Below are positions 1 through 6,010 of a DNA stretch of 32,371 nt, piece by piece. Positions within the stretch are counted from its first letter, which is position 1, and every line of letters begins with the position of its first letter. Source of the DNA: Acidobacteriota bacterium (GTDB taxonomy: Bacteria > Acidobacteriota > Terriglobia > Terriglobales > Acidobacteriaceae); contig JAJYFA010000026.1 of NCBI GenBank assembly GCA_021790995.1, forward strand, positions 1 to 32,371, given 5' to 3'. Below the pieces are notes generated by a model that saw only the letters and a program-made list of their open reading frames with translations, was not told the DNA's origin and searched no databases. The position numbers and the translations under genes are program-made.

Positions 1-43
1 CGCGTCTTGGCATCCCGAGGCTGCGGGTGGAAAATTGAGTGAT

Positions 44-120
44 CGGGGAGTGGCTCAGCCTGGTAGAGCACCTGGTTCGGGACCAGGGGGTCGGAGGTTC
101 GAATCCTCTCTCCCCGACCA
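44..120 (+). tRNA. tRNA-Pro (anticodon CGG)
   Basis: A 77-nt cloverleaf can be drawn by hand. The acceptor strands CGGGGAG and CTCCCCG are followed by the discriminator A and an encoded CCA. The anticodon stem CCTGG/CCAGG (71-75/83-87) encloses the loop TTCGGGA with anticodon CGG at 78-80. The T-arm contains GGTTCGAATCC. It reads proline codon CCG. The gene lies immediately before a probably acquired reverse transcriptase, and tRNA 3' ends are common integration sites, but I found no second copy of this 3' end in the window. Confidence 0.97.
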
Positions 121-411
121 TTTAAATCAATAACTTCCAAACGTTTTCCATCCTTCCAGAAATCTCCTGTAGTCGATTTTGTAGACTGTCTATTCCTTCA
201 ATTCCAACATCGCTGGATTCTCCAAGCGAGCAGTTGTGTTTATCAATCACTCCCTGGACGATTACTCCTCATAGACATATCATTTGTGGGATTCCATTAT
301 GCCCCTAAAGTATGTAGTCTCTGGGCGTTAACGTAGACGCATCCAAAATCCAGCTTGGAAGACGCGGACGTCTCGTCACTCATATCAACTGATCAACCTT
401 CAAGCACTCCT
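121..411. other. AT-richer spacer between tRNA-Pro and the reverse transcriptase
   Basis: No convincing ORF or promoter is seen here. The only structure noted is an 8-bp inverted repeat, GCTGGATT at 212-219 and AATCCAGC at 347-354. The second arm ends exactly before a possible TTG start at 355. Several defence reverse transcriptases have a structured RNA next to the gene, so the spacer could encode one, but the sequence alone does not show it. Confidence 0.4.
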
Positions 412-2472
412 ATGACCGCATTAAGCGACTTCCAGGATCGAAACAATCTCGATCGCGCATGGAGGTGGATTCGGAGCAACCCCGATCCAGGCTACAAGCG
501 CTATTGCTCGGAGTTTTATTCTCGCTTTGCTGTTGCCGATGATCTCATCATCGATGATCTTCAGCAACGACTCCAGCGCGGCTTTTATGAGCCGAGCCAC
601 TCGTGCAAATTCCTGATGCCAAAGAAGTCAGGAATACTCAGACCGTATACCATCCTTACCGTTGAAGATCAGATCGTTTATCAGGCGCTGGTTAATGTAA
701 TTGCGGAGCGCCTTGCGCCGAAGATGCGGAATAGTTATTTGACGCAGACGTTCGGCCACATCTATGCGGGGAAAACTAGCCAGTGGTTTTACCGCCGATG
801 GAACGACGGCTACAAGGCGTTTAATCAAGCAACTCGTGCAGCCTTTAATCGGGGTTTGGTGTACGCTGCGAGTTTTGATCTCACTGCTTGTTATGACAGC
901 CTCGACCACGCAGTGCTATGCCATTTTCTGAAACAGCTTGGAATCGAACAGGAGTTTTGCGATTTTCTTTCTAATTGTCTAAGCAGGTGGACCGCAAACG
1001 ACCGCCGTATATATCAGCACCATGGCATTCCACAGGGTCCACTTGGCTCCGGACTTCTTGCAGAGGTGGTGTTGCGGCACTTCGATCAGCACTATGGGCC
1101 GAAGGCGAATTTGGTCTACCTAAGATATGTGGACGACATCCGTTTGTTCGCAACGAAGGAAATTGAATTGCGTCGCATGTTGATACGACTTGATCGACTC
1201 AGTAAGGACATTGGGCTATTTCCGCAGGCCGCCAAGATTGATATCCACCGTGTTACCAATATCGACAATGAACTGAAGTCCATAAGCAATCCGACAGAAG
1301 CGACTGTGAAGGGCGCAATTGTGGACCAGGACAAGCTCGCAAAACGGATTGCGGCACTGAGCCCCCGGCTTAGTCCCATCGTGAAAATCGAGGATGAAAC
1401 TCGCTTCAAATTTCTTTTGGCGCACGCGTTACCTTCTTCGAAACTGAATGCCCGGATGCTGACTATCAGCGCATCGCGTCCAGACCTTGTACCTTCGATT
1501 GCGCGATACTTTAAGCGATATCAGAAGCTACCGAAATCCGTGTCGAAGCAGCTGATGGCGCGGGTTCGTGGCCAGCAATTATATGACTACGTCACGGCTG
1601 ATTGGCTCTCCGTGCTTGATGGAAGGCTCAGCGACACCGATTCACGCGCGCTCAATAAACTCTTAAAAGCTCAGTGGCGTCCGGGCACCCTCAGCCCTGA
1701 ACTAAAGGCCGAGTCGGGGAAGCGTTTAATTCGTGATGGATGGTTGAATATCAATCAAACGCGGTACGCAATTCACACCGTGCGGGAATGGTGGGTGCGT
1801 GCTCAGTTGGTGTCGGCACTCAACGGTCAACACTATGGAACGTCACCGCTGGAGAGTATGACGAATGAGGCTCTCCGAGATACAAACCCTGACGTGAGTC
1901 TGGCGGCGGCACAACAAGCCGCTCTCCTGAGCGTTGGCGTATTGCCCCCATTGCGCACCATCCAACATTCAGGCGGAAAGGCATTACGTCAGTTCGGTAT
2001 TCTGAAGCGCGTGCCAGGGCGATCCTGTGGCATTTCTTGGAGTATGGCCCGACTGATCGGGAGGTCATCGAGCGTCAATTGGCGCTCGGTATTTGGCTCA
2101 ACATATCGCCATGCCGAAAAGTTGGCCGTGCAAATGAGAGCCCTCAGTGATACCAACGTGACCGCATTTGTTAATGCAGCAGATGTCTTTAATGATCGCT
2201 TGTTGAGTCGGCTGTACCTTCACGATACTTCCTTAGGGACCTATCAACTGGGGAGCATTGGATCTGTGCTCTCCAGTACTCGCTTGCAGAATAGCTACCC
2301 ATTCGTCTTTCAATTGTGTAATGAGATTCATACAGAACGATTGAAGAGCAGTCTCTCGCACCCAATTGTAAAGAAGACCGGAAAACCAACCTCGCGAATA
2401 CCCTATCGCTACTTGAGAATTGCGAAGAGGTTGTATTTGCGGGCAATCGTCGAACTCGAGACGGGTTGGTAG
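412..2472 (+). CDS. Reverse transcriptase, Abi/UG (defence-associated) type
   Basis: This is a large RNA-directed DNA polymerase, 686 aa from the ATG at 412. A TTG at 355 would add 19 residues, and neither start has a clear Shine-Dalgarno. Counted from 355, the fingers segment PKKSGILRPYTILTVEDQ is at 89-106, the motif A aspartate in AASFDLTACYDS is D175, motif B is GIPQGPLGSG (224-233), and the catalytic YVDD of motif C is at 258-261. About 400 residues follow the polymerase core without a recognisable maturase X or HNH domain. They look mostly helical, as in the AbiA/AbiK and class 1 'unknown group' RTs that carry a helical-repeat C-terminus. The absence of PQGG-SP, of a maturase domain and of a template/variable repeat argues against a group II intron or DGR enzyme. 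The likely role, by family analogy, is phage defence. The exact subgroup is not resolved, and base use is less GC-rich than in neighbouring genes. Confidence 0.85.
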   Translation: MTALSDFQDRNNLDRAWRWIRSNPDPGYKRYCSEFYSRFAVADDLIIDDLQQRLQRGFYEPSHSCKFLMPKKSGILRPYTILTVEDQIVYQALVNVIAERLAPKMRNSYLTQTFGHIYAGKTSQWFYRRWNDGYKAFNQATRAAFNRGLVYAASFDLTACYDSLDHAVLCHFLKQLGIEQEFCDFLSNCLSRWTANDRRIYQHHGIPQGPLGSGLLAEVVLRHFDQHYGPKANLVYLRYVDDIRLFATKEIELRRMLIRLDRLSKDIGLFPQAAKIDIHRVTNIDNELKSISNPTEATVKGAIVDQDKLAKRIAALSPRLSPIVKIEDETRFKFLLAHALPSSKLNARMLTISASRPDLVPSIARYFKRYQKLPKSVSKQLMARVRGQQLYDYVTADWLSVLDGRLSDTDSRALNKLLKAQWRPGTLSPELKAESGKRLIRDGWLNINQTRYAIHTVREWWVRAQLVSALNGQHYGTSPLESMTNEALRDTNPDVSLAAAQQAALLSVGVLPPLRTIQHSGGKALRQFGILKRVPGRSCGISWSMARLIGRSSSVNWRSVFGSTYRHAEKLAVQMRALSDTNVTAFVNAADVFNDRLLSRLYLHDTSLGTYQLGSIGSVLSSTRLQNSYPFVFQLCNEIHTERLKSSLSHPIVKKTGKPTSRIPYRYLRIAKRLYLRAIVELETGW

Positions 2473-2607
2473 GGGATGGACTTGAACTCTTTACGCAAGT
2501 GGTTCTTCTCCCTATACTTAAGGCACAGTCGAGGACAAGCTGCTACTATTTCAGGCGAACGCGGCAAAGCCCTTCGCACGCGCCAAACCTCGCATCCGAA
2601 AGAAAAA

Positions 2608-2931
2608 ATGGCCATCAAGAAATCTGAGATCTACAGTTCGCTTTGGAAGAGCTGCGATGAACTTCGCGGCGGTATGGACGCCAGCCAGTATAAGGACTAC
2701 GTTTTAGTTCTCCTTTTCGTAAAGTACGTTTCTGACAAATATGCCGGGCAGAAGGACGCCATGGTCGAAGTCCCCAAAGGCGGGAGCTTCGCCGACGTGG
2801 TTGCCCTCAAAGGCAACAAGGAGATTGGGGACAAGATCAACAAGATCATCGCCAAGCTCGCTGAAGTCAACAACCTCAAAGGCGTCATCGACCAGACCGA
2901 TTTCAACGATCCGCCGCGTACAAGCGGGTGA
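2608..2931 (+). pseudogene. hsdM: Truncated HsdM, type I restriction-modification methyltransferase subunit
   Basis: The 107-aa product starts MAIKKSEIYSSLWKSCDELR and continues through GGMDASQYKDYVLVLLFVKYVSDK. These match the N-terminal helical domain of HsdM, the adenine-methylating subunit of type I restriction-modification systems. Similarity runs to ...GVIDQTDFND, after which the frame reads PPRTSG and stops. The catalytic N6-methylase domain (NPPF motif, about 400 further residues) is missing, and no hsdS or hsdR is present. The coding strand can be extended upstream to an ATG at 2476, only 3 nt after the RT stop, but residues before MAIKK do not resemble HsdM. The most economical reading is a deletion remnant of an island joined to chromosomal sequence before tRNA-Ala. 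A functional small protein is unlikely. Confidence 0.85.
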
Positions 2932-2972
2932 TTCAGGGGGCAAACGGGAGGGTTACGACACAAACAACGAAC

Positions 2973-3007
2973 GAAAAAATGCGGCACCCTTAGAGGATAT
3001 GCCGCAT
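2973..3007 (-). terminator. Rho-independent terminator of tRNA-Ala
   Basis: On the minus strand, just downstream of tRNA-Ala, the perfect 8-bp stem ATGCGGCA/TGCCGCAT (3000-3007 with 2979-2986) encloses a 13-nt loop. It is followed by a run of six T (2974-2979). Position and structure fit an intrinsic terminator for the rho-tRNA side. Confidence 0.85.
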
Positions 3008-3020
3008 GTCGTTGAATCGA

Positions 3021-3096
3021 TGGTGGAGCTGAGCGGGATCGAACCGCTGGCCTCCTCGTTGCGAACGAGGCGCTCTCCCAGCTGAGCTACAGCCCC
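3021..3096 (-). tRNA. tRNA-Ala (anticodon CGC)
   Basis: On the minus strand the acceptor strands GGGGCTG and CAGCTCC pair over seven positions with one G-U, and the discriminator A and an encoded CCA follow. The D-arm reads TAGCTCAGCTGGGAGAGC. The anticodon stem CCTCG/CGAGG encloses TTCGCAA with anticodon CGC (plus positions 3061-3063). The T-arm GGTTCGATCCC is canonical. It reads alanine codon GCG and lies downstream of rho. Confidence 0.97.
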
Positions 3097-3213
3097 ACGA
3101 CTCTATTAGTTTACCAGCGGATCGAAAATCCCGAAAGAGCGACTGAGCGGCCCGCAAGCAGAACCTCCAGGAACCGGTTCAGCTCTCAAGCTGCCCACAG
3201 CCCTTGAAACGAA

Positions 3214-4464
3214 CTATAGCTGGTTCATGTTGGAGAGGAACTCGGCGTTGTTGCGCACCTTTTCAAGGCGGCTGATCAGCAGTTCCATGGCTTCGACCGG
3301 CGACAACGGATTCAGCACGCGACGCAGAATGAAGACGCGTTGCAGGTCTTCCTTCGGAATCAGCAATTCTTCCTTGCGCGTGCCGGATCGCTGGATGTCG
3401 ATGGCCGGGAAAACGCGCTTGTCGACCAGCTTGCGGTCGAGAATGATCTCCATGTTACCCGTGCCCTTGAATTCCTCGAAGATGACCTCGTCCATGCGGG
3501 ACCCGGTGTCAACAAGGGCCGTAGCGATGATTGTCAGCGAGCCGCCTTCCTCGATGTTGCGGGCCGCGCCAAAGAAGCGCTTGGGCCGCTGCAGGGCGTT
3601 CGAGTCCACGCCGCCTGAGAGCACTTTGCCCGAAGGCGGAACAATTGTATTGTATGCGCGCGCCAGACGCGTGATTGAGTCGAGCAGAATCACCACGTCG
3701 CGCTTGTGCTCGACCAGTCGCTTGGCCTTCTCGATGACCATCTCGGCTACCTGCACGTGGCGGGCAGCCGGCTCGTCAAAGGTCGAGCTGATCACTTCGC
3801 CCTTCACTGAGCGCTGCATGTCGGTAACTTCCTCGGGGCGCTCGTCGATCAGTAGCACGATCAAAACCACCTCGGGATGGTTCGATGTGACGGAGTTGGC
3901 GATCGATTGCAGCAGCATCGTTTTGCCGGTGCGTGGCGGAGCGACGATCAGTCCGCGCTGCCCCTTGCCGACCGGCGTCAGCAGATCCATCACGCGGCCG
4001 CTAATCCCCTCGCGCACCGTTTCCATCTTGATGCGCTCCTGCGGGTAGAGCGGCGTGAGGTTGTCGAAGAGAATCTTGTTGCGCGTCTCCTCGGGCGACT
4101 CAAAGTTGATGGCCTCAATCTTGACCAGGGCAAAGTACTTCTCGCCCTCGTGCGGCGGGCGCACATTGCCGCTGATTGAGTCACCTGTCTTGAGGTCGAA
4201 TTTGCGAATTTGCGACGGAGAAACGTAAATGTCGTCCGGCCCTGGCAGATAGTTGTAGTCGGGAGAGCGGAGAAAACCATAGCCGTCGGGAAGGATCTCG
4301 AGGACACCCTCGGCGAAGATGTGGCCTTCCTTTTCGCTTTGCGCCTGGAGGATCTTGAAGATCAGATCCTGCTTGCGGAGGCCGCTGGTTCCCGGAATCT
4401 CAAGGGAGCGCGCGATGCGGCTTAGTTCCGTGATGTTTTTTTCTTTGAGTTCTGCAATGGTCAT
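3214..4464 (-). CDS. rho: Transcription termination factor Rho
   Basis: This hexameric RNA-dependent ATPase ends transcription of untranslated RNA. The 416-aa product has the usual bacterial Rho length without insertion domains. An N-terminal helical Rho_N segment (residues 1-45, [19 protein letters not shown]) precedes the cold-shock-like RNA-binding domain (about 50-120, [14 protein letters not shown]). The RecA-like ATPase follows, with P-loop APPRTGKT near 175-182, [12 protein letters not shown] and the Q-loop/R-loop region [32 protein letters not shown] at 4470 is in frame two codons upstream. ATG 4464 is preferred because AGGTGA lies just before it and the protein then begins as Rho usually does. 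It lies downstream of rpoZ on the same strand and upstream of tRNA-Ala. Confidence 0.98.
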
Positions 4465-4699
4465 GTTCACCTGCGCGAAAGCGGGATGTAATCGGTGGGA
4501 TACGAAGGGGGGAAGTTCTCCGGGGAGAAGACTTTAGCGGCAAAGAGAAATTCAACCGGCGTAACCGACCTGGGAACCAGACTCCATACGAGACTCGACA
4601 AATGAAGGAGCGAAGCGCCGGGAGGATCCTACGATTGCATGAGGGAGACTGCCCTGAAACTTTTTCCTGACTGAGCCTTGCAAGAGTATTGCGATGCCG

Positions 4700-4921
4700 T
4701 TAGGCTGCTCGGCGCCTTTCGACCGGCTGGACCGCAGGCGTCGCTTCGGACGCCAGGCCTTCCGGATTGGCCGTTTCAAACCGGCACAAAACTTCGTTTG
4801 TGGTGTCCTGCAGCCGTGTATTCGGCTTGTGAAGCTTGCGTGTTGCTTTACTGGCCAGCTGACAGAGCTGGTAGCGATTGGTCACATGAGACAGTGCCTT
4901 GAAAACAAGATCGGAACGCAT
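4700..4921 (-). CDS. rpoZ: RNA polymerase omega subunit
   Basis: The 73-aa product MRSDLVFKALSHVTNRYQLC... carries the omega signature: NRYQLCQLASKATRKLHKP followed by NTRLQDTTNEVLCRF. This helical segment clamps the C-terminal tail of the beta-prime subunit and helps RNA polymerase assemble. The length suits the compact omega of this lineage. The ATG at 4921 has the strong Shine-Dalgarno AGAAGGAG with a 7-nt gap. It is followed on the same strand by rho after about 235 nt, so two core transcription genes are adjacent. The identification rests on the conserved motif only. Confidence 0.85.
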   Translation of the reverse strand: MRSDLVFKALSHVTNRYQLCQLASKATRKLHKPNTRLQDTTNEVLCRFETANPEGLASEATPAVQPVERRRAA

Positions 4922-5788
4922 TAGTTTCTCCTTCTACTTCAATTGCCTGCACCAGAAATACCCTCTGTGCCCACTGGTGCAGCGAGGGGAGCCATTACAG
5001 GCTAGGGCTACCCCAAATTGGTGCTTCCATCTTTTAGACGCGCCATTACGGCTCCGAGTTCAAAAAAACTGGCTGCACTCGCACGACTTGAGATGGATGC
5101 CATACCATAGCTGACTGCAGATTGCGCCCCAACGCCCTGGCTCCTTCACAGCCTTTCCGGGAGTTTGCAGCACACACCCGAAACATCTAAAGAGCCCTCG
5201 CTGAAATTAGATGCTGAATATAGGCCGAAAGACACACCTAACTGCCGATGCGCAACCCGCCCTCTATGGATGGCTATGTCGAGAGTATAACCAACGTCCG
5301 CCGGGGTCAATAGTTTTTTCGCGTCGCGCCAGGGACATTTTTGCAGTTTTTGGAATCGCCGCGCAGAGCCTCAGCTTTTGCCCTGGGAAAATCGCTGTAA
5401 CAATTTTTTATTCAATTACATACAAGAGATTTCCCGGTGCGGTTCCAGCACTCTTGCAGGGGCTGTTTCAGGCTGCGAAACGCCGGCGATGAGGCGGCGA
5501 AGCGAATTTTTCTCCGGGTTACTGAAAAGGAAACCCCATGGTTACTAAACCCCACTGCCGCTTCTTCCAGCCGAAATACATGCGGAACGAGTGGTATCAG
5601 CCGAGCTGGACCAGCCACCTTTCTCCTTCAGCGTCTTCTCAATGATTTTGAGGTTTGTCCCTGAGTGGATGGGGAATGTGCACAGCACTCGAATCCGCTT
5701 GATTTTGCGCTGCTTGGAGTAGTCCATTCCCAAATAGGAGTTCCTGTAGACCCGGGCGCCATTGAGCACATTCAAAGGGTCAAAGACT
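4922..5788. other. Long spacer upstream of rpoZ, no supported gene
   Basis: About 870 nt carry only short, compositionally implausible ORFs on both strands. The one signal I can point to is a promoter-like pair on the minus strand near 5284-5310, which would give rpoZ a leader of roughly 350 nt. The segment 5320-5440 is AT-rich relative to its surroundings. Confidence 0.5.
5284..5310 (-). promoter_or_regulatory. Candidate promoter for rpoZ
   Basis: On the minus strand TTGACC (5305-5310) is followed after 15 nt by TATACT (5284-5289). The hexamers are good sigma-70-like matches, but the spacing is shorter than the usual 17. Transcription would run toward rpoZ. Confidence 0.4.
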
Positions 5789-6010
5789 TTAGCGGGCCTT
5801 GCGCGGCGTGCTCGATGGACGTCCGTCAGGATCGCAGAGCAGCGGGTCTCCATTTTCGTCGCATCCGCTCGGAGGGCGTCTTGCGGGCGTCGAACGCTTG
5901 GGAGAAGCGATGATCTCATCCAGCCGGAACAGGTTCACCAAGAGGATTCCCACAAAGGGAATCGCAAACAGTACATTTTCCCAGCCGGATTGGAGAATCG
6001 TGTCCTGCAC
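5789..6010 (-). CDS. Small membrane protein of unknown function
   Basis: The 73-aa product has a hydrophobic stretch, ENVLFAIPFVGILLVNLF (residues 11-28), that can span the membrane once. A short basic, proline-rich tail with GCDENGDPLLCDPDGRP follows. The acidic/cysteine pair in the tail might bind a metal, but that is a guess. The start is GTG at 6010, supported by AGGAG six nucleotides upstream. An 11-bp inverted repeat (6027-6037/6068-6078) lies directly before this ribosome binding site. The gene is downstream of comM on the same strand, separated by about 185 nt. I know no characterised relative. The clean ribosome site, coherent membrane segment and plausible codon use make it a real gene in my view. 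Confidence 0.65.
   Translation of the reverse strand: MQDTILQSGWENVLFAIPFVGILLVNLFRLDEIIASPKRSTPARRPPSGCDENGDPLLCDPDGRPSSTPRKAR

Follow-up and report, generated by a model that had tools for sequence, protein, structure and literature searches.

The stretch analysed here, called the window below, is an entire contig of 32,371 bases from the genome of an Acidobacteriota soil bacterium, and close to its start an open reading frame (ORF) at 412-2472 (+), open along its whole length, encodes a reverse transcriptase (RT) of 686 residues. It is virtually certain that this enzyme is a member of UG19, an already known group among the UG ('unknown group') and defence-associated RTs (DRT). The PADLOC model RT_UG19 (PDLC03756) matches it over its full length with 539 bits (E 3.9e-162, profile positions 3-559 of 562, protein residues 4-684), against 183 bits, about one third of that score, for the second-best model, UG21, and nothing we tested sets the window protein apart from the group. 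The UG/Abi-type RT with intact motifs A, B and C that the initial annotation had read from the bare sequence is thus borne out, while its length of 705 residues is not: that figure stems from a TTG at 355. Our best reading is a stand-alone UG19 defence RT built of three modules, namely an RT whose catalytic residues are intact, a helical region and, at the C terminus, a HEPN domain, arranged as in AbiA. The gene and its parts are as follows.

412..2472, + strand: UG19 reverse transcriptase gene, 686 residues (PADLOC RT_UG19, E 3.9e-162, residues 4-684)
412..1311, + strand: RT fingers and palm, about residues 1-300 (Pfam RVT_1 at 70-279)
877-879, + strand: D156 of motif A (FDLTACYDS)
1024-1050, + strand: motif B (GIPQGPLGS)
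1126-1137, + strand: motif C, YVDD (D241 and D242)
1384..2016, + strand: stretch of helices that is probably solenoid-like, residues 325-535 or so (from AF2 secondary structure)
2017..2469, + strand: predicted C-terminal HEPN-like domain, residues 536-686 (modelled alone with AF2; VIA)
2338..2361, + strand: R643-x6-H650, RLKSSLSH, the HEPN RNase motif (R in 76/76, H in 76/76 proteins)

Translation probably begins at the ATG at 412, because DNA homology with the closest relative, a gene in a congener (L034, genome G002; 85% protein and 79% DNA identity), starts at 410, where the only start codon of that relative is the matching ATG; the DNA similarity extends from there to the stop codon at 2472. 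Compared with L034, the ratio of nonsynonymous to synonymous substitution rates (dN/dS, by NG86) comes to 0.061 over the whole gene; by segment it is 0.045 (residues 1-300), 0.09 (residues 325-535) and 0.051 (residues 536-686). These ratios are rough, as dS is about 1.4 and synonymous sites are near saturation. Judged by this low ratio and the open frame, the gene is intact and maintained by purifying selection.

Profile scans gave 94 relatives in genome contigs, 80 of which were kept, and 17 in viral contigs, two of them full-length; a single-sequence scan of the same genome and viral contigs with the window protein gave no confirmed match. RT_UG19 was the best PADLOC model for all ten relatives tested, and also for L041 and L125. 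The full-length set to which the conservation counts below refer has 76 rows: 72 of the 82 scanned loci plus the window, L034, L037 and L043. Ten loci (L073, L080, L081, L082, L085, L092, L094, L098, L111 and L121) were left out for a frame shorter than 640 residues or for N in the sequence, and the set includes an identical pair from one contig (L043/L096) and two pairs of near-copies (L065/L127 and L075/L083). To these rows, drawn from more than ten phyla, eight other RTs were added (8 of the 12 outgroup loci, with L002, L007, L008 and L013 left out), giving a tree of 84 RT domains that has several long outgroup branches and no retron row. In this tree the window groups with L034 and L047 and next with a Planctomycetia row, and a branch with 100/100 support separates five group II-like or general RTs from UG19 together with three UG-like RTs. 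The latter attach inside the UG19 side with weak support (80/59). Placement with group II intron RTs, which the initial annotation had named as a refuting result, is not what this tree shows. Of the five outside RTs two were scanned, both best matched by the PADLOC general RT model, and of the three UG-like RTs two were scanned, both best matched by DRT8.

Polymerase, helical region and a predicted HEPN-like tail

RVT_1 is the sole Pfam family that matches the window protein (E 8.8e-18), and the catalytic aspartates are present both here and across UG19: D156 in 76/76 proteins, D241 in 75/76 and D242 in 76/76. Beyond the polymerase, a whole-protein model built with AlphaFold2 (AF2) from nine sequences (pLDDT 73.4, pTM 0.43) places 12 helices of at least nine residues between residues 329 and 527, a region that is predicted to be probably HEAT-like or solenoid-like, and further helices at 540-549, 557-578, 583-604, 623-628, 630-645 and 665-685. 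The helical C-terminal half proposed in the initial annotation therefore stands as to its helices, but it is not uniformly helical in character, since it ends in the HEPN-like domain. Similarly, the likeness to AbiK holds for the helical region, whereas the nearest overall architecture is that of AbiA, owing to this end. When the whole model was compared with known structures by VIA, the AbiA of Lactococcus lactis (8oz7_A) was the only listed row spanning residues 2-686 (Z 19.4, 361 residues aligned, root-mean-square deviation (rmsd) 11.3); most other rows were confined to the RT, the best being 6ar3 and 6ar1.

Modelled alone, the C-terminal domain forms a four-helix structure of 151 residues with far better scores (AF2 with 71 sequences; pLDDT 95.6, pTM 0.89). 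Its alignment was obtained by thinning the 76 rows at 90% identity to 72 and leaving out L125, which has a spacer of 4 in its motif. In a VIA ranking drawn from 450 aligned chains, the best 11 rows (Z 6.6-8.9) are 2hsb (Z 8.9, rmsd 3.3 over 116 residues), 5yep_B (Z 8.0, 3.2 over 114), three MntA-HepT entries (Z 7.7-7.8), AbiA 8oz7_C (Z 7.6, 3.9 over 132), 2q00 (Z 7.5), 1ufb (Z 7.2), sacsin 3o10 (Z 6.9, 3.9 over 124), 1wol (Z 6.7) and 7ae6 (Z 6.6). HEPN is named in the structure titles of 2hsb, 3o10, 1wol and 7ae6, and the HepT entries, 2q00 and 1ufb we take to be HEPN proteins. For AbiA a C-terminal HEPN is described in the published work (PMC11077055), and SO_3166 (5yep) is likewise known as a HEPN protein from the literature. 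We are strongly confident that the domain has the predicted HEPN fold, a call based on the VIA matches together with the motif and not on Foldseek. As HEPN is the domain of many RNA-cutting toxins, this suggests how the UG19 family could work. We found no description of a HEPN domain in UG19 in the open-licence literature, where supplements were beyond the scope of the search and an earlier mention is possible.

The motif itself is the most conserved feature of the tail. R643 and H650 are the only residues outside the polymerase that are invariant in all 76 proteins, with only G617 (74/76) and P630 (72/76) also reaching 90% beyond the RT, and mean column identity of the HEPN-like domain across UG19 is 31%. 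This full conservation argues that both residues matter in UG19; it does not thereby prove catalysis. The HEPN motif has the form Rx4-6H and sits where helix 3 ends, and the placement in the AF2 model agrees with the position described for it (PMC3710099), R643 lying close to the C-terminal end of helix 630-645 and H650 in the loop ahead of the last helix. The distance from the end is also much like that in AbiA: 36 residues separate H650 from the end of the window protein, and in AbiA the motif, RNSNPVSH at 581-588 (PMC11077055), is followed by 35 residues up to 623, the last one aligned. UG19 members of the N type have a similar motif, for example RNSIPDSH in the protein of L040/L126. Between R and H there are six residues in 75/76 proteins and four in one, the Fischerella UG19 (L125, 7845-10223, +), where RNRVDH (Rx4H) replaces Rx6H; the spacer therefore varies within UG19 as it does in HEPN domains generally.

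Several observations weigh against the three-module reading. Foldseek gave no significant match for the domain, its best hit being a vinculin tail at E 0.76, with the sacsin HEPN at rank 9 and AbiA at rank 34. In VIA, hemerythrin also reaches Z 6.6, and a Z below 8 (for helical bundles, below about 13) may reflect a common arrangement only. Pfam HEPN models match none of the 71 UG19 C-terminal domains, and the Pfam family of the AbiA tail, PF18732 (HEPN_AbiA_CTD), matches no UG19 gene in 13 genomes, ten of which have an intact gene; it is also without a match in a scan of 396 genomes of the phylum, a scan that does not establish absence. PDB sequence profiles show no HEPN in the C-terminal domain either, the two matches being LINE-1 (E 0.022 and 1.2). 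The residue after R is, in the clade of the window, not the usual polar one but mostly L or Y instead of N: across the 76 proteins N occurs 36 times, L 20 times and Y 13 times, and the window sits in a 39-row subclade (96/86) whose motif is without N after R. As for the middle module, predicted as HEAT-like, HEAT_2 matches only one of the nine sequences (E 0.048). Finally, the stretch at about residues 290-325 of the window protein, a flexible loop that apparently matches the priming loop of AbiA, is without tyrosine.

The comparison with AbiA cuts both ways. AbiA shares the order of RT, helical region and HEPN as well as the R-x6-H motif, and an association with restriction-modification (R-M) systems is reported for AbiA-CTD, which UG19 likewise shows at some loci. 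It differs in that PF18732 matches the AbiA-CTD type and not UG19, in that its priming tyrosines lie in a loop whose apparent counterpart in the window protein is free of tyrosine, and in that the UG19 profile, which at E up to 10 matches 41 PDB sequences including AbiK (3.7e-13), does not match AbiA. In published tests on AbiA (PMC11077055), no RNase activity of its HEPN was seen with four RNAs, and the R581A/H588A mutant kept defence against the phages tested, which also speaks against an RNA-cutting tail; both dimerisation and polymerase activity depended on the domain. An intact R-x6-H is therefore no proof of an active RNase. The UG19 tail, too, might be purely structural, serving only to dimerise and to support polymerisation, with untemplated DNA as the antiviral agent and no RNA being cut. 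This we regard as somewhat improbable, though a serious contender: it is what the AbiA report describes for L. lactis, and the polar residue after R has been lost in the clade of the window, but R and H are kept in 76/76 proteins within a domain that is otherwise divergent, and structure alone would not be expected to fix both. The tests on AbiA extended to four RNAs and to a restricted range of phages. On balance we see the chances that the putative HEPN RNase of UG19 is active as evenly divided.

Neighbouring genes and flanking sequences

Around the RT gene the window carries the following features.

44..120, + strand: tRNA-Pro (cgg), found by ARAGORN and Rfam, at the contig edge
121..411, + strand: leader from tRNA-Pro to the RT gene, without sign of structured RNA and unmatched in L034
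2476..2931, + strand: ORF with a 5' fragment of hsdM, ATG at 2608; relic of a type I R-M system (MTase_I, HsdM_N)
3021..3096, - strand: tRNA-Ala (cgc), found by ARAGORN, on the opposite side of the RT segment

Both the neighbouring tRNA and the R-M relic pointed out in the initial annotation are there, the former at the contig edge. The ORF at 2476-2931 matches positions 1-102 of the 810 in the MTase_I profile (E 1.4e-55) as well as the Pfam model HsdM_N (E 5.1e-16), and the hsdM fragment begins 135 nt past the RT stop. Because the contig begins 43 bases ahead of tRNA-Pro, the far side of the RT locus is outside it. On the other side, homology with two congeners (L155 and L164) picks up again at 2926. 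The stretch between tRNA-Ala (cgc) and rho (window 2926-3214; L152-L166) measures about 0.25-6.5 kb among congeners and 0.12 kb in the window, and so looks like a variable spot. Fourteen congeneric rho stretches were compared (a fifteenth, L162, without a rho match, was dropped), and tRNA-Ala lies on that side of rho in 8/14 and tRNA-Pro in 0/14. The idea that tRNA-Pro proves an integration site was rejected, given the contig start 43 bases before it and its absence from all 14 stretches.

Type I R-M genes recur beside UG19. HsdM-, HsdS- or HsdR-like ORFs lie within 4 kb at 17 of 74 loci (455,585 bases examined), an undercount in that it missed the hsdM fragment of the window itself; the count left out L043, L047, L083 and L127, and loosely assigned are the large methylase-like ORFs at L057 and L102 and a helicase-like one at L107. 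Such ORFs start 4-8 kb away at six loci, five of them among the 17 (329,395 bases examined). At seven of the 74 loci (L049, L053, L055, L069, L086, L090 and L097), which are dispersed across the tree in several places, the RT gene follows the end of hsdS on the same strand at a distance of 4-38 nt. The order at L097 is hsdM-hsdS-RT-hsdR, with gaps of 22 nt (hsdS-RT) and about 4 nt (RT-hsdR), while at L109 hsdR begins 13 nt past the RT gene. The type I specificity subunit tops the families of adjacent proteins (7/103, from 67 loci), and the three widest clusters of neighbours, the widest present at 13/76 loci, are HsdR-, HsdM- and HsdS-like. Genes with ordinary roles (histidine kinase, creatininase, carbonic anhydrase, LpxC) also adjoin the RT at some loci, so that the R-M linkage is an association and not proof.

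This arrangement recalls PrrC/EcoprrI, whose gene lies by or inside hsdMSR, as at some UG19 loci, and whose HEPN is C-terminal as well; PrrC carries an ABC ATPase ahead of its HEPN where UG19 has an RT (PMC3710099). An RT-HEPN protein acting as a second line, firing when a phage inhibits the type I R-M system, would fit the hsdS genes directly upstream, the gene orders at L097 and L109, the rank of the specificity subunit among neighbours, the description of PrrC in PMC3710099 as a HEPN nuclease in an hsdMSR neighbourhood, and the fact that both the window and its nearest relative, L034, adjoin type I R-M genes. Even so, we consider such a guard unlikely. A majority of loci (57/74) have no Hsd ORF within 4 kb, some of them on short contigs, which tells against the three-module reading too; the window keeps an hsdM fragment only, with no guarded partner seen nearby; defence genes cluster anyway; and at L097 the hsdM is truncated by the contig start and the hsdR shifts frame near the contig end.

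Other neighbours were seen at single loci. A gene for a TIR-domain protein lies about 170 nt downstream of the UG19 RT on the same strand at L043 (1455-2564, -), and ABC-3C-type genes (CTD10 and DUF2326 proteins) lie directly downstream at L036 (10228-13204, -). An MmeI-like methylase is the neighbour at L044 and a Schlafen AlbA_2 protein at L038. Phage-integrase matches number two among the 103 neighbour proteins.

The flanks of UG19 genes do not point to an RNA partner. The leader at 121-411 has a fold z-score of -0.88, with 40 of 200 shuffles folding equally well, and no further match exists between the first 6 kb of the window and the 20-kb stretch of L034 outside the RT gene, which counts against a cis-acting RNA. 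Across the family, similarity at E <=0.01 links nine pairs among 70 upstream and nine among 76 downstream stretches, and most of these pairs are copies or close relatives; with those that have coding neighbours, nearly all are accounted for. Beyond copies and close relatives, they include L049/L053 (upstream, 144 nt, hsdS in both), L071/L105 (49 nt, E 0.001) and L090/L097/L109, which belong to one subclade. A family-wide cis noncoding RNA, the mark of class 2 DRTs, was rejected on these three grounds, and an RNA that evolves fast or is limited to a subclade could still lie in the flanks.

Could the gene, then, have no role in defence at all, and be instead an RT with a housekeeping or mobile-element function, such as a relic of a group II intron? 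Its RT domain does resemble group II intron RTs (VIA rows 6ar3 and 6ar1; TIGR04416 at 87 bits against a cut-off of 300), and some loci have ordinary neighbours. We nevertheless regard this as very improbable. A group II intron was rejected, and a diversity-generating retroelement (DGR) is improbable: RVT_1 stands alone, Pfam finding no maturase domain in the RT; at Rfam gathering thresholds the window contains only the two tRNAs and no catalogued intron or retron RNA; and ungapped repeats of at least 20 nt are absent from positions 1-6000, diverged repeats being outside this search. The initial statement that maturase, retron and DGR features are missing agrees with these results. Tree and PADLOC both say UG19, its presence is patchy (10/397 genomes of the order), and R-M, TIR or ABC-3C genes adjoin it at some loci. 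An endonuclease fold in the C-terminal half had been named as a sign against a defence RT; an RNase-type fold is indeed predicted there, but it is one found in the defence RT AbiA and is no pointer to an intron. We thus infer that a defence role of the UG19 RT is quite likely.

Possible modes of action

Class 1 UG/Abi enzymes such as DRT3b, AbiK and Abi-P2 have an RT followed by a helical region, as UG19 does, and for class 1, whose members carry a helical repeat domain, two reports (PMC13174585, PMC13275509) describe template-free, protein-primed synthesis. In DRT3b the helical region is described as a solenoid of six units; the window protein has its 12 longer helices. DRT3b is reported to prime on a C-terminal tyrosine, whereas in UG19 no tyrosine past residue 565 is kept in 70% of the 76 rows. 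The tyrosines of the window protein that recur in 54 to 64 of those rows are Y28, Y36, Y134, Y161, Y366, Y391 and Y565. A further point in common is that no family-wide flanking RNA was seen in UG19.

Within the three-module reading, DNA synthesis by the RT would need no RNA template and would start from a residue of the enzyme itself. This step is suggested by an architecture like that of class 1 and by the absence of a flanking RNA shared across the family; by this analogy, template-free synthesis is probable. The helical region and the HEPN domain would then hold an oligomer together and contact the DNA product, as in AbiA. In a third step, the weakest, phage attack or a blocked partner R-M system would change the product or the assembly, upon which R643 and H650 would cut host or phage RNA and infection would stop. 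We lean, with modest confidence, towards an RT that works without a template and cannot serve in defence without its HEPN domain.

A bolder version would make UG19 an RT-controlled HEPN ribonuclease, in which self-linked untemplated DNA acts as tether or sensor and keeps the HEPN site shut until a phage disturbs dNTPs, the DNA itself or a type I R-M enzyme acting as partner and so releases RNA cleavage, the RT taking the place of the ABC ATPase of PrrC. We think this doubtful. No functional study of UG19 was found in the open-licence literature, and what the three-module reading adds is that a HEPN-like tail, a fully conserved motif and some type I R-M operons turn an 'unknown group' into a testable RT-plus-RNase hypothesis. 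UG19 likewise raises the question whether the inert HEPN of AbiA is the rule or an exception. The group is widespread. What the window itself gains is modest, a single UG19 member, intact and under selection, from an Acidobacteriota genome.

Occurrence of UG19 genes

At E 1e-40, UG19 matches occur in 10 of the 397 genomes examined in the order and in 4 of 396 drawn from the phylum. Both counts take in the genome of the window itself; the order count also has G061 (broken gene) and the phylum count G513 (shortened gene), and G724 is a UG9-type RT. In tblastn searches, 798 plasmid records gave partial matches only, all below 60% identity and none covering 80%, and five phage records gave partial matches only.

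Two of these genomes hold altered copies. The UG19 homologue of G061 (L042, G061:C8:31552-33593) is spread over two overlapping frames, covering query residues 7-221 and 206-665, and is a broken gene or an assembly error. In G513 (L044/L098, G513:C99) the UG19 ORF stops at 474 residues, with the HEPN part missing, and directly follows the MmeI-like methylase gene. Other genomes of the genus of the window contain RT stretches with DRT8 as best match (L016 and L018), so that at least two kinds of defence-type RT exist in this genus.

A Polynucleobacter contig (L065) and two viral contigs (L127 and L128) have UG19 genes that are closely similar and share their neighbours. Their neighbours include an ORF of 445 residues on the opposite strand, 14 nt beyond the RT gene, and a phage or satellite is a possible carrier of these three.

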